From positions 1 through 64,000 of the forward strand of contig CAJQOX010000110.1 of the NCBI GenBank assembly GCA_905480075.1: a stretch of 64,000 bases of DNA, written 5' to 3'. The position numbers were made by a program, and so were the translations under genes. The stretch's first letter is position 1, and each line of letters begins with the position of its first letter. The DNA is from an uncultured Aureispira sp. (GTDB lineage Bacteria > Bacteroidota > Bacteroidia > Chitinophagales > Saprospiraceae). The notes under the pieces were generated by a model, which made no database searches, had not been told where the DNA came from, and saw only the letters and a program-made list of their open reading frames with translations. This document shows positions 12,442 through 57,835 of the stretch, in pieces.

Positions 12442-13218
12442 ATGGCAAGACCAACATTGAGACTGTACGATGGATTCAGTCATACTTCACCTCACCTGAA
12501 AGACGATGTAAAGGATTTACAAACCCTGTTGAAGGGCCTGGGATACAGAATCAAGCCTGATGGTGGATTCGGAGCCTATACAGAAAACATTGTCCGTTTA
12601 TTTCAGACTTCAAAAAAAATCACAGCAGATGGGGTCGTCGGGCCATTTTGTTGGTCCCTTTTGCTCAACAAGCCCAGTCCTAAAGATGTGGAAACAACTT
12701 TTCAAACCACCTATTCCAAGTGGGACAAAAATTTACTGAAGCAATTGGAGGAATTCAAAAAGTATGAAGAAACGGCTAAAAAGGTAGCTGCAAAATACGA
12801 GATACCGGTTTCAATTATTGCCGGCATTGGTTCCCGTGAGTCACATTGGGGGCTGGCACTTACGCCTGTTGGGCCTGGCGGCACAGGAGACGGCGGACAT
12901 GGCAGGGGCCTAATGCAGGTTGACGACCGTTGGCATATACCTTTCGTTGAATCCGGCAAATGGGCAAACGGAAGAGATAACATTATTTACGGTGCTGCTG
13001 TACTTAAAAACTGCATGAACTATTTTGTAAAAAAGGCAGAATGGGAAATGAGTTATAAATTAATAAAGGCGGGCGTTGCCGGATATAATTGCGGGCCAAG
13101 AAGGGCATGGGATGGATTCAGAATGGGGCATGGAGTAGATTATTATACTACCGGCAGAGATTATTCGTCCAATGTAATTGAAAGGGCGGGATGGTTTCAG
13201 CTACATGGATGGGAGTAA
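12442..13218 (+). CDS. Peptidoglycan-binding (PG_binding_1) + goose-type lysozyme-like/GH23 protein
   Basis: 'DDVKDLQTLLKGLGYRIKPDGGFGAYTENIVRLFQ' PG-binding; 'IAGIGSRESHWG...GHGRGLMQVDDRWH...VAGYNCGP' GEWL-type catalytic segments; no signal peptide apparent. Confidence 0.88.
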   Translation: MARPTLRLYDGFSHTSPHLKDDVKDLQTLLKGLGYRIKPDGGFGAYTENIVRLFQTSKKITADGVVGPFCWSLLLNKPSPKDVETTFQTTYSKWDKNLLKQLEEFKKYEETAKKVAAKYEIPVSIIAGIGSRESHWGLALTPVGPGGTGDGGHGRGLMQVDDRWHIPFVESGKWANGRDNIIYGAAVLKNCMNYFVKKAEWEMSYKLIKAGVAGYNCGPRRAWDGFRMGHGVDYYTTGRDYSSNVIERAGWFQLHGWE

Positions 13219-13303
13219 ACCTGGTCACAGAAAAAATGCCCTATTGAAAGTTTATACCTTCTGTCCTGCTAAACATAGTTTTTATAACAGACCTTGTTTT
13301 TCA

Positions 13304-13408
13304 GGGCGTCCGGGCGCTACGTTACAGAGCTCGCTATCGCTCGGCCCGCTGCTGTCAAAAAACAACAGCGGTCTGCTACTTCGTATCCCTCTTTCACATC
13401 GCTGACGC
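13304..13408 (-). repeat. Structured GC-rich intergenic repeat, copy 1
   Basis: Plus strand GGGCGTCCGGGCGCTACGTTAC...AGCTCGCTATCGCTCGGCCCGCTGCTG...CAACAGCGGTCTGC...CACATCGCTGACGC; inverted relative to copies 2 and 3. Confidence 0.9.
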
Positions 13409-13621
13409 AAAAATGATAAAAATGATGTAATTGATTCATTGATAAACGGGAGGTAATTTCAGTTCTGACAATAAGTTCATTCTTTCCTAAAATGTATACT
13501 TAAACCCTTCCTGCGTACTCCGAAACAACTAATTTATCGCTTTTCATTCAGGCATCTGAACATTTCCAATTAAAACATCCATATCAATCAAAATCAAATC
13601 CATCGGTCAATCCGACAATCC

Positions 13622-13733
13622 GCGTCAGCGATGTGCAGTAGTGTGGCCGCAGGCCGCAGACCACATCAGCAGTTTTTCACAGCTGATGTGGGCCGAGCGA
13701 GAGCGAGCTGCGAAACGTAGCGCCCGGACGCCC
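13622..13733 (+). repeat. Structured GC-rich intergenic repeat, copy 2
   Basis: GCGTCAGCGATGTGCAGTAGTGTGGCCGCAGGCCGCAGACCACATCAGCAGTTTTTCACAGCTGATGTGGGCCGAGCGAGAGCGAGCTGCGAAACGTAGCGCCCGGACGCCC. Confidence 0.93.
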
Positions 13734-13820
13734 TGCTTTAAGTAACAATTCCCGATTTTGAGGGGTTTTAACAGCGGGATTATTTCACAAGCAGAAATAA
13801 AAGGGACATTTGAAATTATA

Positions 13821-14981
13821 TCATACGATTTCAGGTTCTGCGTTTATAGATTCCCGGTCACTTCGTTTTTTGATTTTATACCATAGTACATTTGCAAACA
13901 ATGCACATAAAGAAACAGCAACAAAGGCAATCCACCAATCAGAAGACAGGAGTGCCTCTTTCAGAGTAAGCTGACCGAGACAAAAAATATTATACACGGG
14001 GATAATCGCTTCGGATAAACTGATTTTTTCTAATGGAAACAACCCGGCAATGGCAACAATATGAAGAATCACCGCTCCCCAAAAAGTAAAGGAATAAGCC
14101 TTCAAGGAAGTTTTAGCAAAGGAAGCCAAGCAGCCTAAAACCCCGATAATAAATAGCCATGTTGGCAACCAAAGCCAGAATACGGCACTGACTTTCTTCC
14201 ATTGCAATAATTGCTGAATACCAAAAACAAGACTTTTAATAATCCCTTGTGAACTGTTGTTTATTCCACTTTGAAAGCCAATAAACACCAAGACCATGGC
14301 CATTAATGAAGCTGCAAAAATAAATATCAGATTGTAGACAAAAGATGGGCTTTGCCCCCTTTCAACTCTCAGTATCAAACTGCGTAATAGCCAAACGACA
14401 AACATGACAAACAAAAAATTGATAATCCCTGCAGAAACCCCCTTCACCTGATTTAATATATCAGCGACCATATTAAACACGCTGAAAGAATTATTTTTAT
14501 TGATAGAAACCGGATTAAAAACACTTTCATCCAAACCGAGAGAATCAGCATTTTCAGCAATTATTTCATCTTCATATGTGTCTAACACATCGACTATCAT
14601 ATTCAGGGATTTGCTGTTTTTCATCGAATTATAATAACAATCAACTTGTCTGATAAAATTAGAATCTGAGCTAAAGTCTTTTGAAAAAACAAGACCTGCA
14701 TCTATGCTATCGCTAGCTAATTTCAGCGTAATTTCATTTTTGTCATTCAGAAAAACCACATTTGCCCTATCTTTGTACTTTTGTAACAATTCGGAAGGAA
14801 TGTGTTGCTGACCTACAATTGCAAGTTCAGGCATTTCCCCATCCCCTTCAAGAGCTTCATTAACAGCATTGGCAGACAGGATCATGAGGGCAGAAAAGAA
14901 AAGGTAGGGAAAAAGAAAAGCGAGTGCAAGTCGCAACCAAAATTGCAAATTCAGAAAAACTGTTTTTATTGATACCAGCAT
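13821..14981 (-). CDS. ABC-2 type / NatB-like membrane permease
   Basis: N-terminal TM, large extracytoplasmic domain, cluster of C-terminal TMs, as in ABC-2 permeases; no adjacent ATPase. Confidence 0.6.
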   Translation of the reverse strand: MLVSIKTVFLNLQFWLRLALAFLFPYLFFSALMILSANAVNEALEGDGEMPELAIVGQQHIPSELLQKYKDRANVVFLNDKNEITLKLASDSIDAGLVFSKDFSSDSNFIRQVDCYYNSMKNSKSLNMIVDVLDTYEDEIIAENADSLGLDESVFNPVSINKNNSFSVFNMVADILNQVKGVSAGIINFLFVMFVVWLLRSLILRVERGQSPSFVYNLIFIFAASLMAMVLVFIGFQSGINNSSQGIIKSLVFGIQQLLQWKKVSAVFWLWLPTWLFIIGVLGCLASFAKTSLKAYSFTFWGAVILHIVAIAGLFPLEKISLSEAIIPVYNIFCLGQLTLKEALLSSDWWIAFVAVSLCALFANVLWYKIKKRSDRESINAEPEIV

Positions 14982-27278: not shown

Positions 27279-27611
27279 AAAAACCATGCTCCAAAGAAGA
27301 ACACAATATTATAAACAAAGGAAACACATCGCTTTACTTCATTTCATAAAAACAAAATTATAAGGTTCAAATTCTACGTTTTTTATACTAAACAAGGTCA
27401 AAAAATCTCATTTCAGTTGGATTTTCAGCTTAAAAGGCACATATCTTTTATAAGCATGAAATTCTTTAGTGGATTATCAAGAAAATCAATGAAAAAAAGA
27501 TATTTTTGAACTCCTTTTATTGATATCTGTTCTTTTTGGCTAAACCCCTGGAAAACGAACAAAAGCAAGACACTGCAGAACAGTCTCTTGTTGCTACAAT
27601 CAAGCGAATTT

Positions 27612-30600
27612 ATGAATTTTAAGATATTGAACTTTTCCTTATTTTTTTATAGCTTTTGTTATATTGCTGGATTAAGTGCAAATGACAACAGTTTTGATTA
27701 TCTGAAGGAAGATCTTTGGGAATCCCCTGTTTATACATTATTGGATACCTTACCTCCTATCACCGACAGGCAGGGAGATTTCATCACTGATGAAAACAAT
27801 AATCCCTTTGATCTTAATGACCCTAAAATTATAGAGAAAAAAGTAGAGTACGACCCCGAAAGTGGTTATTATATCATAACAGAAACTATTGACGGGTCCA
27901 ATTACAGGTCTCCGATGTACCTGAGTCCTGAAGAGTATTTCAAGTGGCGGGCAAAAGAAGAAGACAGTGCCTACATGAAAGAACTTTCAAAAATGAATAA
28001 GGTCGGAAAAGTGGGGGGAGACCCGATAGTGCCCTATCAGGACCGGATAAGCAAAGGCCTCGTAGAGCGTTTATTTTGTGGTTCTACTATTGATGTCCGC
28101 CCACAGGGGAATATTGGCCTTACCTTTGGCTTTGATTATCAAAAAATAGCAAATCCAATACTTACCGAACAACAACAACAACAAGGTGGTTTTGATTTTG
28201 ACATGAACATTCAACTGAGTGTAGTAGGGAAAATCGGTCAAAAACTTAAACTTTCCTTTAACTACAATACACAGGCTACCTTTGACTTTGACCGGCAGAT
28301 AAAGGTGGAATATCTTAGTGATACTGAATGTTCTGAAGACGACATTATCAAAAAGATAGAGGCCGGTAATGTTAGTTTTCCCCTGAGCACCTCACTTATT
28401 CAGGGGCGGCAGAATCTCTTTGGCTTTCGGACAGACCTGCAGTTTGGACGCCTTAAAATGTCACTAGTTGCCTCTCAGAGTCAGACAAAACGAAAAGAGA
28501 TACAAATTCAAGGTGGTTCACAGCTTCAGGATTTTGAAGTAACAGCAGACAACTATGATGAAAACCGGCACTTTTTCCTTTCGCATTACAACAGAGGAGC
28601 CTATGAACAGAACCTGGCGACACTACCACAGATAAATTCTTTGTTTAATATTACGAAAATTGAAGTTTGGGTTACAAACGACCGGAATGTTACAGAGGGT
28701 GTAAGGGATATTGTGGGCTACGCCGACCTTGGAGAACCTGAGACAGCAAATATGGTAAGCGGGAATGATTACACACCTGCTACAGCACCCGAACAAGGAG
28801 TTGACCTTTTGAACCGGAGACTTCCTGACAATGATGCAAACACGTTATATTCCAAATTACTTGATAGTGAAAACGGAGCACCACAATCTAATGCCCGTGG
28901 TCTTCAGACCTCTATCTCCGCTCTTCAGGGAGCAACCTTTAATATGAATGATGCGGAAGATTTTTCAAAAATAAGGGCAAGAAAGCTGGCACCTTCAGAA
29001 TTCACCTACGATCCTAAGCTGGGTTTTGTTTCTGTCAATGTTTCTATAAAACCAACCGATGTAGTTGCTGTAGCCTACCAATACACCTATAACGGGGAAC
29101 TTTATCAGGTGGGGGAGTTTGCACAGGATTTACCTCTTGATGCTGACACACTGAATGTGATGCACATGAAGCTGCTGAAAGGAGTTCGAACAAGAGTAGA
29201 CCTGCCTATATGGGACCTTATGATGAAAAACATTTATTCATTGGGCGCCTATCAGATCAATCAGGAAGATTTCATGTTGGATGTATTTTATCAGGACCCC
29301 GGAGGAGGGGAAAAGCGTTTTATTCCTGAAGGGCCGGTTAACGGGAAGCCTCTTATTACGATGCTGAATCTTGATAATCTGAACCGGGCATTAGACCCGA
29401 TTCCGGACGGTCAATTTGATTATGTACCCGGACTGACAATATTACCCAGGAACGGCAGGATAATATTCCCTGTTCTTGAGCCCTTTGGCAGCTCCCTGGA
29501 AAAAGAATTTTATACAGTACCCAACGACCCTGCAAGCATTCACCCCTTGTCGCAAAAATATTTATACAACCAATTGTATGACTCGACCATTACACGGGCC
29601 AGGGAATTCCCTGAATTTAACAGATACCTGATACGGGGTCGTTACAAATCCAGTGTATCATCAGAAATATCTTTAGGAGGTTTTAACATACCCAAGGGGT
29701 CTGTAGTAGTAACTGCCGGAGGAAGAACTTTAACAGAAGGCTCCGATTATACTATTGATTACAATCTGGGGAGAATCAAGATATTGAACGAATCCTATCT
29801 CAATTCAGGACAACCGGTCAGAGTTGCTTTTGAAGACAATTCGACCTTTGGTTTCAATCAACAAGGATTTTTCGGTGCCCGCTTTGACTATTTCATCAGT
29901 GAGAAAATCAATATCGGGGCTACCTTTTTACACCTGAACGAGCGCCCTTTTACACAAAAAGTAAATTATGGTGATGATCCGATATCAAACAGCATTTATG
30001 GCTTTGATGTACGCTATAGTGCTGAAGCCCCCTGGCTGACCCGATTAATAGACAAAATACCCCTAATCAGTACCAAGGCAATGTCGAACATATCCTTTAC
30101 GGCAGAATTTGCCCATCTGATACCGGGTGCACCCGATGTTATCAACCAGGGAAATGACAATGGCGGGGTGGTATACATTGATGATTTTGAAGGTTCTACA
30201 AGTAACTTCAATCTGTCTATACCAAGCCTCAACTGGATACTCGCATCGACCCCCCGAAGTGATGAGGTCAGTCCTTTGTTTCCTGAAGCGAGTTTATCGA
30301 ACGACCTTGAATACAACAAGAACAGGGCAAAAATATCCTGGTATAATCTTGAACCACAACTAGCCACAACGGCATCAAGCGCCAGTATTTACACCAGGGA
30401 GATACAGCAACAGGATGTTTTTCAGAATGTTCAATATACAGGACTGACCTATCAGGGATTACGTACCTTTGATCTAAATTACAACCCTACTCAAAGAGGG
30501 CCCTACAACTTCAGCACAGAAAACCTCGACATTGACGGAAAATTCACAGACCCTGAAGCGAGATGGGGTGGCGTAATGCGTAGTATACAGAACAGTGATT

Positions 30601-33600
30601 TCGAAGCCTCTAACATAGAATTCATAGAAGTATGGGTGATGAGTCCTTTCAAAGAAGGAAAAGGTGGTGATGGTGGAGATTTATACATAGATCTCGGAGA
30701 TGTTTCTGAAGATATCCTCAAGGATTCACGTCTGTTTTTTGAAAATGGTATACCGGATTCAAATGCAAATTCAAATGTTGACCAGACAGTATGGTCAAGA
30801 ATTCCCCGGACACAGGCAGTAACCCGTGCCTTTGATAATGACCCTTCAATCCGCAATCAGCAGGACATTGGACTCGATGGCTATGATGACGCCGGGGAAC
30901 AAATACAATTCAAGGGTTTTCTTGATACCATTGACGCAATGGTTACTGCGGGTCAGCTAAACGCATCTGTTGCGGCTGAATTGCGCAATGACCCCTCGGG
31001 AGATAACTTCCGCTACTACCGGGACGCCTACTATGACGATCCGAACAATATCCCTGCCGGAGTCAATTCTGTTCTTCACCGATACAGTAAATACAATAAC
31101 CCACAGGGTAATTCCACCAATGACCCTTCAACCACTTCGGGGGCAAATCAGGCAATCAGCACCTCCACCAATATACCGGACACGGAAGACCTGAACAAAG
31201 ACAATACATTAAACGAGCAAGAATCGTATTTTCAATATAAAATTCCAATCAGAAGGGACAACGGTGAAGAAATGGCTTTCACACAATACACCGTAGATTC
31301 TGTTCGGATGGATTATCAGGATGGCAATGGTCAGTCTGAATCTGTCTATTGGTATCAATTAAAAATACCTATAGACAAATTCACAAAACGGGTAGGTGGT
31401 ATTTCCGGCATTCGTGCTATACGTTTTATGCGCATGTATATGACAGGTTTCAATGAAGAGACTACGCTTAGAATGGCACGTCTTGATTTGATCAGGAACC
31501 AATGGAGAAGATATTTTCGCTCACTTGTTTTACCAGGTATGGTGATACCTCCGGAAGACCCGAGCAGTACTACATTTGATGTAAATGCGGTCAACATTGA
31601 AGAGAATGGTTCAAGAACCCCCTTCAATTATGTATTACCTCCGGGAGTTTCACGTGAACAGGTTATTGGTTCTGTTACAAATGCTCAGCAAAATGAACAA
31701 TCTCAATCTCTCAGAGTGTGTAACCTGGAAGATGGAGACGCAAGGGGGATATACAAAATCCTTAATCTTGACATGCGTGTCTACGAACGTATTAAGATGT
31801 ATGTTCATGCAGAAGATATCAGGGATGAATACCATAATGAAACAGGGGACATGACCTTGTTTATGCGAATTGGAAGTGATTTCGAGAACAACTACTATGA
31901 GTACGAAATCCCTTTAACAATGTCTGAAGAAGCCGGAGGAACCAATGAACCTTCCAATGTATGGCTTGAAGCAAATGAGTTTAACTTTCCTTTGTCCCTA
32001 TTGCGGGAAATAAAAACCGACAGAGAACTTAAAGGAGTTGCCGTTAGTGACTTGCACGAACTTCCAGATGGAGAAAACCGAGTTAAAATCAAAGGAAATC
32101 CTACTTTGGGACAGGTAAAAAATGTCATGATAGGTATACGCAACAAAAAAGACGATGGCCTTGCCCGCTGTGCAGAAGTTTGGGTAAATGAACTAAGACT
32201 TACCGGTTTTGACGAACGGGGTGGTTTTGCCGGATTGGCGAGGCTTGATGTACAATTGGCTGATTTAGGACAATTTACTGCATCGGGAAGTTTTCAATCT
32301 ATCGGCTTTGGCAATATTGATCAGAGTGTGGGAGAACGCAGCCGTGAACAAAACATTCAATATGATTTTTCAGGCTCTTTAAAACTTGATAAATTCTTTC
32401 CTAAAAAATGGAAATTAAACATTCCCTTTTATGCTCAGTATTCTCAGGAAATAAGCACACCGGAATACGACCCTTATCAATTGGATGTTCCTTTAGAGGA
32501 AAGGCTGTCTTCAATTGTTGATTTGAATGAACGAAAATCAATCCGGGAAGCCGCAAGAACTGTTCGTACCATTTCCAGTTTCAATTTTACCAATGTAAAA
32601 AAAGGCAGAACTTCAAAATTCATCCCCTTGCCTACCGACATTTCTAATTTCTCATTCACCTATGCACAATCGAGTAATCTTTTCCGTTCGCCAATAATTG
32701 AACGGGAGGAACGTACAGAACACAGAGGAGTAATAGATTATAAATATTCTCCCGGCACCAAATCAATTTATCCTTTCAAAAAAGCCATTAATAAAATAAA
32801 GAATAAAAAAGTTGTAAAATGGCTTGCGCTGATACGTGATATAAACATTAACCCACTACCAAACAGTATAGGGTTTCGAAACGAACTCAAAAGAAACTTC
32901 GGAGAGACTACCTATAAATTTACAGAAGGAGTAACAAGTACCTATTACGACAAGAAGTTTTCATGGGACAGGACCTATTCTTTACAATGGAATATTTTCA
33001 AAGCGCTTAAGTTCAACTATAACGCAACCAATTTCGGAGTCATTGATGAGCCCGAAGGAAGGGTTAACACGGAGGAAAAAAGAGACTCATTATGGTCGAA
33101 TGTAGCCCGATTTGGTCGTACCAAAAACTATCAGCACAACATCAGCCTAAGCTATACGCTGCCTTTGAAAAAAATTCCTATTTTGAATTGGATATCTGTC
33201 AAAGGACAGTATAATGCTACTTACAGCTGGACTGCAGCGACTTTGGGGATGGATTCTTTGGGCCATACAATACAAAACTCTCAGAAACGTCAGGTAACGG
33301 GAGATTTTCAGTTCAAAAAACTATATGACAAATGGAAGTATCTCAAGAAAATAAATACTCCCAAGCGACCGAATGCCAAAAAGCCTAAAAAGGTAAAGTT
33401 TCCGGACAAACCTAAATACCCACCTTTGAAGGAAATAAAAGATGAGGAAAAACGGGATGAAGAAAAAATAAAAAGAAAAGATGAATTAAAAAAGTGGCGG
33501 AATGATGTCAGGAAAATTCGTGAAAAGCGAATGCCCTCGGATGCGGAACGTGCTATAATCAGGCCTTTCCTTTTACTTCAACGTGCAAGAATCACCTATA

Positions 33601-35030
33601 ACGAAAACTTTACTACGGTATTGCCGGGTTTTGTGGGCGTTTCAAAATATATAGGACAGGATTACACCGGAACTAGTACGAATGCAGGTCCGAGACCGGG
33701 TTGGGGCTTTATTGCCGGTTTGCAACCGGACAATGCCTGGCTTGACAATGCATCGGAAAGCGGGTGGATAACCAATAATATTTATCAGAACAAGCAGGTT
33801 ATACAAACTCATACTCAAACCTACACGGCCAAAGTGACACTGGAACCCTACAAAGGCTTTAAGATAGATGTTGATTTGAATAAAACAATAACAGAAAATT
33901 ATTCAGAATTATTTAAGGTAGAAGATCAGTTCAGCAATGATCAGTTCTCTCATTTAAATGCAATGCAACGGGGGAATATAAAAATGACCTATTTACCATT
34001 GTCCACCTTCTTTGACAAACAGGGTACTAAAGGAATAAACTCCTCGGTAAACTTTGAGACCTTCGAAGCAAACCGTATTATCATTTCTCAACGCAAGGGA
34101 TTGGGCAACCATGACAATCAGGAAGAGAATGCAGGGTTTACAGAGGGCTACGGCCGATACCAACAAGACGTATTAATTCCTGCTTTTCTGGCTGCATACA
34201 CCGGGAGAAGTGCTGAATCTGTTGATCTTGGTGACATCAGAAATGCAGTTCCTATGCCGAACTGGAAACTGACCTATAACGGACTGGCAAAAATAAAAGG
34301 GCTGGATAAAATATTCTCCAGTTTTAGTCTGACACATGGATATAAATCTACATTATCGGTCAGCAGTTTTGTTACGGACCTTGATTATGCCTCTACATTA
34401 AATGTAAACGGTACAGATGGCAAAGATATTAACAGCCAGAATTATTACTCAAGTTTTGAAATCCCCAATTTAATAATTTCCGAATCCTTCAATCCCTTAA
34501 TAGGGTTGGACATGCGTTTTAAAAATGATCTTTCATTGCGTTTTCAATATAAGACAAGCAGAAACCTTGCTATGAGCTTTATTGACTACCAATTGAGTGA
34601 ACAAAACACTACGGATATTACTGTTGGGTTTGGCTGGAAATTTAAAAATTTCAAATTTAAAAACCTTGCCAAGTTATTTAAATCTAAAAAGAAGAAAAAC
34701 GACAAGGCTAAAACCAAAATGAAAATCGGAGAAATGGATTTCAATTTTGATTTTGGTAAAACTGTAGCTAAAGACGAATTAAATCTGAAATGTGATGTAT
34801 CTTTCAGGGATGACAAGACAGTAAATCACATATTGGATCAGGATCAATCTGTAGCAACGCGTGGTATGAAAACTATCCGGATATCCCCCTCTATTGAGTG
34901 GATTCCAAACAACCGTTTGACGTTCCGTTTGTTTTTTGATTATACACAAACTATTCCTGCGGTATCTACTTCTTTTCCGATTACCAGTGTAAAAGGAGGT
35001 CTTACGATTAGATTCTCTTTATCTCAATAA
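27612..35030 (+). CDS. sprA: T9SS outer-membrane translocon / gliding protein SprA
   Basis: ~2470 aa; 'DVRPQGNIGLTFGFDYQKIANPILTEQQQQQGGFDFDMNIQLSVVGKIG', 'GGVVYIDDFEGSTSNFNL'; downstream of ruvA as commonly seen. ATG 27612 preferred over TTG 27588. Confidence 0.97.
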   Translation: MNFKILNFSLFFYSFCYIAGLSANDNSFDYLKEDLWESPVYTLLDTLPPITDRQGDFITDENNNPFDLNDPKIIEKKVEYDPESGYYIITETIDGSNYRSPMYLSPEEYFKWRAKEEDSAYMKELSKMNKVGKVGGDPIVPYQDRISKGLVERLFCGSTIDVRPQGNIGLTFGFDYQKIANPILTEQQQQQGGFDFDMNIQLSVVGKIGQKLKLSFNYNTQATFDFDRQIKVEYLSDTECSEDDIIKKIEAGNVSFPLSTSLIQGRQNLFGFRTDLQFGRLKMSLVASQSQTKRKEIQIQGGSQLQDFEVTADNYDENRHFFLSHYNRGAYEQNLATLPQINSLFNITKIEVWVTNDRNVTEGVRDIVGYADLGEPETANMVSGNDYTPATAPEQGVDLLNRRLPDNDANTLYSKLLDSENGAPQSNARGLQTSISALQGATFNMNDAEDFSKIRARKLAPSEFTYDPKLGFVSVNVSIKPTDVVAVAYQYTYNGELYQVGEFAQDLPLDADTLNVMHMKLLKGVRTRVDLPIWDLMMKNIYSLGAYQINQEDFMLDVFYQDPGGGEKRFIPEGPVNGKPLITMLNLDNLNRALDPIPDGQFDYVPGLTILPRNGRIIFPVLEPFGSSLEKEFYTVPNDPASIHPLSQKYLYNQLYDSTITRAREFPEFNRYLIRGRYKSSVSSEISLGGFNIPKGSVVVTAGGRTLTEGSDYTIDYNLGRIKILNESYLNSGQPVRVAFEDNSTFGFNQQGFFGARFDYFISEKINIGATFLHLNERPFTQKVNYGDDPISNSIYGFDVRYSAEAPWLTRLIDKIPLISTKAMSNISFTAEFAHLIPGAPDVINQGNDNGGVVYIDDFEGSTSNFNLSIPSLNWILASTPRSDEVSPLFPEASLSNDLEYNKNRAKISWYNLEPQLATTASSASIYTREIQQQDVFQNVQYTGLTYQGLRTFDLNYNPTQRGPYNFSTENLDIDGKFTDPEARWGGVMRSIQNSDFEASNIEFIEVWVMSPFKEGKGGDGGDLYIDLGDVSEDILKDSRLFFENGIPDSNANSNVDQTVWSRIPRTQAVTRAFDNDPSIRNQQDIGLDGYDDAGEQIQFKGFLDTIDAMVTAGQLNASVAAELRNDPSGDNFRYYRDAYYDDPNNIPAGVNSVLHRYSKYNNPQGNSTNDPSTTSGANQAISTSTNIPDTEDLNKDNTLNEQESYFQYKIPIRRDNGEEMAFTQYTVDSVRMDYQDGNGQSESVYWYQLKIPIDKFTKRVGGISGIRAIRFMRMYMTGFNEETTLRMARLDLIRNQWRRYFRSLVLPGMVIPPEDPSSTTFDVNAVNIEENGSRTPFNYVLPPGVSREQVIGSVTNAQQNEQSQSLRVCNLEDGDARGIYKILNLDMRVYERIKMYVHAEDIRDEYHNETGDMTLFMRIGSDFENNYYEYEIPLTMSEEAGGTNEPSNVWLEANEFNFPLSLLREIKTDRELKGVAVSDLHELPDGENRVKIKGNPTLGQVKNVMIGIRNKKDDGLARCAEVWVNELRLTGFDERGGFAGLARLDVQLADLGQFTASGSFQSIGFGNIDQSVGERSREQNIQYDFSGSLKLDKFFPKKWKLNIPFYAQYSQEISTPEYDPYQLDVPLEERLSSIVDLNERKSIREAARTVRTISSFNFTNVKKGRTSKFIPLPTDISNFSFTYAQSSNLFRSPIIEREERTEHRGVIDYKYSPGTKSIYPFKKAINKIKNKKVVKWLALIRDININPLPNSIGFRNELKRNFGETTYKFTEGVTSTYYDKKFSWDRTYSLQWNIFKALKFNYNATNFGVIDEPEGRVNTEEKRDSLWSNVARFGRTKNYQHNISLSYTLPLKKIPILNWISVKGQYNATYSWTAATLGMDSLGHTIQNSQKRQVTGDFQFKKLYDKWKYLKKINTPKRPNAKKPKKVKFPDKPKYPPLKEIKDEEKRDEEKIKRKDELKKWRNDVRKIREKRMPSDAERAIIRPFLLLQRARITYNENFTTVLPGFVGVSKYIGQDYTGTSTNAGPRPGWGFIAGLQPDNAWLDNASESGWITNNIYQNKQVIQTHTQTYTAKVTLEPYKGFKIDVDLNKTITENYSELFKVEDQFSNDQFSHLNAMQRGNIKMTYLPLSTFFDKQGTKGINSSVNFETFEANRIIISQRKGLGNHDNQEENAGFTEGYGRYQQDVLIPAFLAAYTGRSAESVDLGDIRNAVPMPNWKLTYNGLAKIKGLDKIFSSFSLTHGYKSTLSVSSFVTDLDYASTLNVNGTDGKDINSQNYYSSFEIPNLIISESFNPLIGLDMRFKNDLSLRFQYKTSRNLAMSFIDYQLSEQNTTDITVGFGWKFKNFKFKNLAKLFKSKKKKNDKAKTKMKIGEMDFNFDFGKTVAKDELNLKCDVSFRDDKTVNHILDQDQSVATRGMKTIRISPSIEWIPNNRLTFRLFFDYTQTIPAVSTSFPITSVKGGLTIRFSLSQ

Positions 35031-35095: not shown

Positions 35096-35428
35096 ATCGG
35101 ATAATCATAAAAACAGGCACCTTATACAGATTTACTAATTCGAAAAGCCTAAAGAAACTTAATGATTCTTAACTGTTATATTTTTTTTATTTAAAAACGT
35201 TTATATTTTTTCAACGTTTTTTTAATGGACAATTAGTAAATTTTAAGGATTATATAATTAAAAAGATTTTAGGGAGATTGTAAACGCCCACACACACAAC
35301 AGAGGGCACGGCATGATCAAGATTCCTCAAGACACCCTGTTCAAAACATAGACGAATCCCCTGCATCAACTGCATCGAATCCATCTCATGAGAACAATCA
35401 GAATAATCAGAACAATCAGAACAATCAT

Positions 35429-35536
35429 CGTCAGTGATGTGCAGTAGTGTGGCCTACGGCCACAGACCACAGCAGCTGTTTTTACAGATGTTGTGGGCCG
35501 AGCGGAAGCGAGCTGCGTAACGTAGCGCCCGGACGC
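35429..35536 (+). repeat. Structured GC-rich intergenic repeat, copy 3
   Basis: CGTCAGTGATGTGCAGTAGTGTGGCCTACGGCCACAGACCACAGCAGCTGTTTTTACAGATGTTGTGGGCCGAGCGGAAGCGAGCTGCGTAACGTAGCGCCCGGACGC; closely matches copy 2. Confidence 0.93.
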
Positions 35537-35709
35537 AAAAAGCAAATAAAAAAATAAGTTCTCTGTCTGGACGGAGCAGAAAAAATAGTATATTTATCCT
35601 TTGATCCGGAATAAAAGAGCAAATAAATAATTCAAAAAAATAAGCAAAATTGCATTAGATTTCTGTAATTTTACTAAATACAATTAAACATAAGATAAAA
35701 CCATAAAAA

Positions 35710-36030
35710 ATGAGTGATAAAAATCAAAAACCGAACGAGATAAGCATCGAGTTGCCAGAAGAAATTGCGGAAGGTATTTATGCAAATTTAAGTATAATCT
35801 CACATTCGAATTCAGAGTTTGTACTCGACTTCATCCGAATGGTACCTAATGTCCCCAAGGCGAAGGTAAAATCAAGGGTTATTATGACCCCACAACAAAC
35901 AAAAAGGTTGATGATTGCAATAAGAGAGAACATAAAGCGCTACGAGGCTGCACATGGAATTATTAAGGAATCGGATATGAATCAAATGCCATTTCCAATG
36001 AATTTCAACAGCCCGAAAGGTCAGGCATAA
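35710..36030 (+). CDS. DUF3467 domain-containing protein
   Basis: 'GIYANLSIISHSNSEFVLDFIRMVPNVPKAKVKSRVIMTPQQTKRLMIAIRENIKRYEAAHG'. Confidence 0.93.
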   Translation: MSDKNQKPNEISIELPEEIAEGIYANLSIISHSNSEFVLDFIRMVPNVPKAKVKSRVIMTPQQTKRLMIAIRENIKRYEAAHGIIKESDMNQMPFPMNFNSPKGQA

Positions 36031-57761: not shown

Positions 57762-57835
57762 CGCCCTCAACTGGACTCGAACCAGTGACCCTCTGATTAA
57801 CAGTCAGATGCTCTAACCAACTGAGCTATGAAGGC
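57762..57835 (-). tRNA. tRNA-Asn (anticodon GTT)
   Basis: Reverse complement GCCTTCATAGCTCAGTTGGTTAGAGCATCTGACTGTTAATCAGAGGGTCACTGGTTCGAGTCCAGTTGAGGGC; loop CTGTTAA. Confidence 0.95.

Follow-up and report, generated by a model that had tools for sequence, protein, structure and literature searches.

A high-copy family of branched, foldable intergenic repeats with a patchy distribution in the Saprospiraceae

A small non-coding element with a conserved branched fold occurs between genes in an uncultured Aureispira sp. and in a patchy set of other Saprospiraceae, in some of which its copy number is explosive. We propose, with about an even chance of being right, that these repeats form a family of non-autonomous REP-like elements that are moved and copy-corrected in trans, through their folded strand, by a putative enzyme. 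Dispersed copies exchange their inner parts, and in three densely populated genomes (Saprospira grandis str. Lewin, Phaeodactylibacter luteus and the Saprospira genome G727) the copies alternate in orientation along the chromosome.

Results

The window, the whole 64,000-nt stretch of Aureispira DNA analysed here, contains three copies. Two of these make up the inverted pair reported in the initial annotation, and both are indeed found there: copy 1 on the minus strand at 13304-13408 (105 nt; 102 bits to covariance model R1) and copy 2 on the plus strand at 13622-13733 (112 nt; 130 bits), with a spacer of 213 nt at 13409-13621 running from the 5' end of one to the 5' end of the other. The outer inverted arms (13302-13347 and 13690-13735, 46 nt) are 91% complementary and the inner arms (13395-13408 and 13622-13635, 14 nt) 100% complementary. 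The pair sits between the converging ORFs 12442-13218 (+) and 13821-14981 (-), such that the 3' end of copy 1 is directed at the ORF ending at 13218 and that of copy 2 at the ORF ending at 13821, each 86-88 nt from the nearer gene; the 5' ends face each other, an arrangement shared with the other close pairs. At both ends the spacer is AT-rich and bears a weak resemblance to the ends of the spacer in a second close pair of this genome, on contig C4.

The third copy, on the plus strand at 35428-35538, is marked by both end motifs, was absent from the initial annotation, and is likewise intergenic, with ORFs 27588-35030 and 35710-36030 on either side; the first of these ORFs encodes 2480 aa, presumably a very large cell-surface protein of the SprA type. 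Across the window CGTAGCGCCCGGACGCCC occurs three times at ≤3 mismatches where 0.00 are expected from 100 shuffles, and GCGTCAGCGATGTG three times where 0.03 are expected. Elsewhere in the window, four tRNA genes are clustered on the minus strand at its start (17-503), and another lies at 57762-57835.

DNA searches of the genome assembly (5.08 Mb in 408 contigs) returned 43 matches with copy 2 as query and 46 with copy 1, and covariance model R1, built from 37 own-genome copies, locates the element at 53 sites, 52 with E < 1e-6. The description of a repeated, GC-rich, intergenic element therefore holds at about 53 copies genome-wide, well beyond the copies first noted. The 37 copies have a mean pairwise identity of 83.5%, with nearest neighbours 86-96% identical, and the length of the element is roughly 90-130 nt. 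Three matches (L025, L033 and L040, on contigs C259, C11 and C13) carry a longer 5' domain inserted after GCGATGT, beginning TATGAACGAGCATAAAGGAGACTAAATGTCTCGTTTATG, and apparently form a subfamily, to which other long matches in this genome may belong. Sequences upstream of the copies abound in ATC/AATCATC and those downstream often run TAGTAGTAAGTCATAAGT; these look like low-complexity tails common to many copies.

The own-genome model has six helices, and RNAalifold, applied to the copies, reproduces the branched structure that was found by inspection. In copy 2, all on the plus strand, the terminal stem P1 (5' strand 13622-13626, partner 13727-13731) is compensated between copies. Inside it, stem P2 (GCGATGT, 13628-13634) has its partner at about 13715-13721; the changes seen across genomes favour register 8/105 for this stem, with 10/102 and 13/100 coupled. 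Stem P3 (13638-13641, partner 13708-13711) covaries strongly and encloses the variable hairpins Pa (13643-13657, helix 4 of the named structure) and Pb (13661-13691, helix 5, mostly missing from a subset of copies), together with a mini-hairpin, P6 (13694-13707), of the form C-GA-GC-GNRA-GC-GA-G, which is compensated between genomes.

Among the 37 own-genome copies, 97.0% of the cells of the named structure pair, against 89.3% after shuffling, with an average of one broken pair per copy, and 21 of the 34 base pairs have changed on both sides, against 8.4 in shuffles. None of 500 shuffles reaches any of the covariation measures, and sliding the partners abolishes the signal. The same is seen among 213 distinct copies from several genomes, where pair 13/100 is C-G in 104, U-A in 100, A-U in four and G-C in two; pair 17/96 is G-C in 184 and A-U in 26; pair 18/95 is G-C in 86, C-G in 58, U-A in 34 and U.G in 18; and pair 19/94 is G-C in 123 and A-U in 83. 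Positions 10 and 102 change together in this set, A being found with G, or C with A. It had been suggested from the window pair that the stems are kept through different bases and that the structure is under selection; the first is what both sets of copies display, and the statistically clear covariation supports the second. Covariation within a genome derives in part from block exchange between copies (see below), so our case for selection does not depend on it alone; stronger support comes from the conserved loops and from the occurrence of the same pairs in other genera, where the unpaired core is also conserved.

Wobble cells on the element strand are T.G or G.T in 76 cases and A.C or C.A in 2, which identifies the element strand as the folding strand. 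This excess is compatible with RNA and with single-stranded DNA alike; G.A and GNNA modules, too, are stable in either molecule. Folded singly as DNA, copy 2 has z = -2.3 and copy 1 z = -0.8, values that are weak evidence taken alone.

We found no match in Rfam at the gathering score across the window, and at E up to 5 the few matches at six loci were chance-like, so that a known RNA family was rejected for the window and the six loci; no description of the element was found in the open-access papers searched. A scan of genome contigs for a 3'-end pattern yielded a single true homologue, in P. luteus, besides two chance matches. The covariance model detects diverged copies in the family and the order, with at least 142 among the best 150 candidates in P. 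luteus. A core pattern matches in 26 of 199 Saprospiraceae genomes, while the reversed pattern matches in none; P. luteus has 723 matches, G612 349, G589 311, G633 (the Lewin strain) 294 and G727 267, and all other genomes have 30 or fewer. Among 396 genomes across the phylum, matches were confined to the window genome and one member of the Saprospiraceae. Conserved boundaries in related genomes, which the initial annotation had named as a test, are present. A second model recovered 257 copies from an 800-kb sample of the Lewin chromosome, or ~1,400 in total by extrapolation, and 57 copies in 395 kb of P. luteus, the latter being regions picked around strong matches, from which any extrapolation would be biased.

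Three Saprospira plasmids (NC_016936.1 from Lewin, NZ_CP116809.1 and NZ_CP110855.1) carry the element; plasmid matches in G633 fall at the same places as those in NC_016936.1, which identifies that genome as Lewin. These replicons, of 53-55 kb, encode purine, GMP and phenylacetate genes in one order and are like a small second chromosome. An origin of the element in phages was rejected, with no matches among 50,697 phage records.

None of the 22 copies on the annotated Lewin plasmid lies in a coding sequence; together they account for 26% of its intergenic DNA and 4.7% of its full length. Their 3' ends are close to genes (median 42 nt) compared with their 5' ends (174 nt; p = 1.4e-4), and no replication-strand bias was seen in Lewin, where GC skew is weak. 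Divergent gaps are avoided, with 1 of 53 copies in such gaps in P. luteus and 2 of 34 in the window genome, both from mechanical ORF calls. Single-element gaps of the pur and paa operons hold five sense and five antisense copies, an equality that makes it unlikely that the element acts as part of the mRNA of adjacent genes.

A relative without pattern matches, G597, carries purQ-purH-purC-purB-purD-purN-purF in the order found in Saprospira, with gaps of 12 nt (H-C), 32 nt (B-D) and -4 nt (D-N), at each of which Saprospira has an element. Such tight gaps indicate that elements either entered an operon already in place or were lost from G597, and copies look to have been inserted into the pur operon gaps, with the direction read from this one relative. 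Because gene order is the same in G597, we rejected the idea that purH and purD are mobile cassettes flanked by opposed elements. Protein identity between the two operons is about 55-65%; no clean recent insertion with a target duplication was seen, nor an empty site close enough to read.

Neighbouring copies tend to lie in opposite orientations. The pattern was first noticed on one plasmid, that of Lewin, where 22 of 22 neighbours are opposed, and was then tested on the chromosome and in other genomes, one of which lacks it. The two other plasmids give 16 of 20 (QB6) and 20 of 22 (WH), and the Lewin chromosome sample has 190 opposite and 26 same neighbours (p about 6e-32, the binomial values taking neighbouring pairs as independent), with greater search sensitivity lifting the opposite share from 83 to 88%. 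There are 35 opposite and 7 same neighbours in P. luteus and 44 and 9 in G727; alternation is not a universal rule, since G612 has 12:11, while the few pairs of G589 divide 3:2 and the window genome, sparse in copies and assembled in short contigs, supplies few neighbour pairs for such statistics.

Spacing depends on which ends face each other: in Lewin the median gap is 1.4 kb where 5' ends face, with 41 gaps below 1 kb, and 3.5 kb where 3' ends face, with a single gap below 1 kb. All close pairs in Saprospira are 5'-facing, and the window pair and the C4 pair are likewise inverted. We rejected insertion as near-identical twin pairs, since two neighbours resemble each other no more than two copies paired at random, and close pairs even less, and also a common spacer, which is shared in only 4 of 21 close Lewin pairs. 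Those four 5'-facing pairs (L164, L169, L180 and L209) share a spacer of ~256 bp at ~93% identity and are perhaps a larger compound unit.

Most element sites are common to the three Saprospira plasmids, and some have been emptied in one strain. At orthologous sites the element itself has a median identity of 84%, compared with 92-96% for the 300-nt flanks, and the differences are blockwise: the interior is substituted over the stretch P3 to P3', and in each stem the two strands have changed in concert. Between orthologous sites hairpin loops also occur inverted (AAA to TTT), which points to a change at the level of DNA. At several sites the inner part matches same-genome copies at 0.88-0.97, better than it matches the orthologous copies, so that inner parts have been exchanged between dispersed copies, and one site has similar flanks around a complete element of a different class. 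This second class in Saprospira, with a different P2 (AGGGATGG ... CACAGCCC), is found around 5326 in NC_016936.1 and at the NZ_CP116809.1 orthologue of 37204, and can hold a site that belongs to the first class in another strain.

Mobilisation by a RAYT (Y1_Tnp) protein, which the initial annotation had raised, is not supported by these genomes, and we reject it. The one Y1_Tnp gene of the window genome has no element copy in the 2.1 kb around it, G589 has no Y1_Tnp match alongside its 311 element matches, and copy number does not follow Y1_Tnp number among genomes; in dense genomes a few copies lie near Y1_Tnp genes, as expected from density.

Discussion

In the explanation that we favour, one strand of the element would fold into the branched structure, as single-stranded DNA or as RNA, and the fold would be the substrate of a putative trans-acting enzyme that copies or moves elements into intergenic gaps; resident copies would afterwards swap inner parts with other copies, helping the stems to stay matched. 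The age of most plasmid sites, common to three strains, counts against this explanation, as do the REP hallmarks of tag, size and RAYT that the element lacks.

REP, BIME and REPIN sequences with their RAYT (TnpA-REP) proteins, and GTAG- and CGTC-tagged repeats, are the known systems for comparison (PMC3733652, PMC3116915). The likeness to REP/BIME organisation that was noted at the outset stands as regards high copy number, intergenic position and frequent inverted pairing, to which palindromic sequence, lack of autonomy and avoidance of divergent gaps can be added. It fails in that a branched fold of 90-130 nt replaces a single stem-loop of 20-40 nt, with neither a fixed unpaired GTAG or CGTC tag nor a linked RAYT. 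REP units alternate within BIMEs (PMC2817692), whereas the alternation here spans the chromosome in some genomes. Repeats with a CGTC tag and no dedicated transposase have been reported also in Bacteroidetes (PMC3733652), and the own-genome copies similarly start with GCGTC and likewise come without an assigned mobiliser; unlike the tag, however, this GCGTC is paired in P1 and varies with its partner (GCATC, GTGCC, GGCCT, the last being the terminal sequence in other genomes), and being paired and compensated it is not a fixed unpaired tag. MITEs are also small, non-coding and dispersed, with short terminal complementarity, but here the 5-bp P1 changes between copies in place of a fixed terminal inverted repeat, the internal branched fold is conserved and no target duplication was seen in the one operon comparison, a distant one. 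The covariation-supported multibranch fold and GNRA-like loop recall the structured RNAs of Rfam, from which the element differs in matching no family and in its mixed orientation to neighbouring genes.

The features of the fold bear most directly on whether the element acts or moves as RNA, as a multicopy structured non-coding RNA (a regulatory RNA, a ribozyme or an RNA-mobile SINE-like element). Features typical of RNA are the GNRA-like loop, the tandem G.A pairs and the tolerance of G.U pairs, and the unpaired core is conserved across genera; we nonetheless think such an RNA unlikely, given the lack of an Rfam match, the hundreds of copies in both orientations, and the want of any sense-strand preference relative to neighbouring genes in operon gaps. 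The same non-canonical pairs imply a single strand, and so weigh against a functional duplex site that selection holds in place and that works in opposed pairs, perhaps as an operon boundary or by binding a protein of recombination, topology or the nucleoid. A site of this kind would account for the conservation of sites across three Saprospira strains, for 3' ends that adjoin genes, and for alternating neighbours whose 3'-facing gaps are typically about 3 to 3.5 kb long; its absence from most members of the family, its loss at some sites in one strain and the lack of alternation in G612 make it the more improbable of these two proposals. It would be more surprising still if the matched stems were kept mainly by mutation, through template switching at hairpins and gene conversion, with little selection on the fold: this might explain the inverted hairpin loops at orthologous sites and the exchange of blocks between copies, yet short and distant stems (P1, P3 and 13/100) covary too, and the unpaired CAGAC, the GA/GA pairs and the loop-closing G and A are conserved across genera.

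A separate and more tentative proposal, which we rate as rather doubtful, concerns the alternation: that folded single-strand elements act chromosome-wide in oriented pairs, being placed or retained with neighbours opposed and bracketing blocks of ~3 kb with their 3' ends inward, either by paired insertion or because the pair has a task of its own, for example in looping or in the processing of transcripts. To our knowledge, such an arrangement would be a kind of repeat architecture not previously described in bacteria.

On one housekeeping plasmid of Saprospira grandis the element takes up 26% of the intergenic DNA, and its copies in that genome are estimated at ~1,400, yet it is without an Rfam family. 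It provides a case in which covariation measures selection on a branched fold in a repeat, and its orthologous sites let exchange between dispersed copies be read, while an orientation rule that is obeyed by 22 of 22 neighbours on one plasmid calls for a mechanism.
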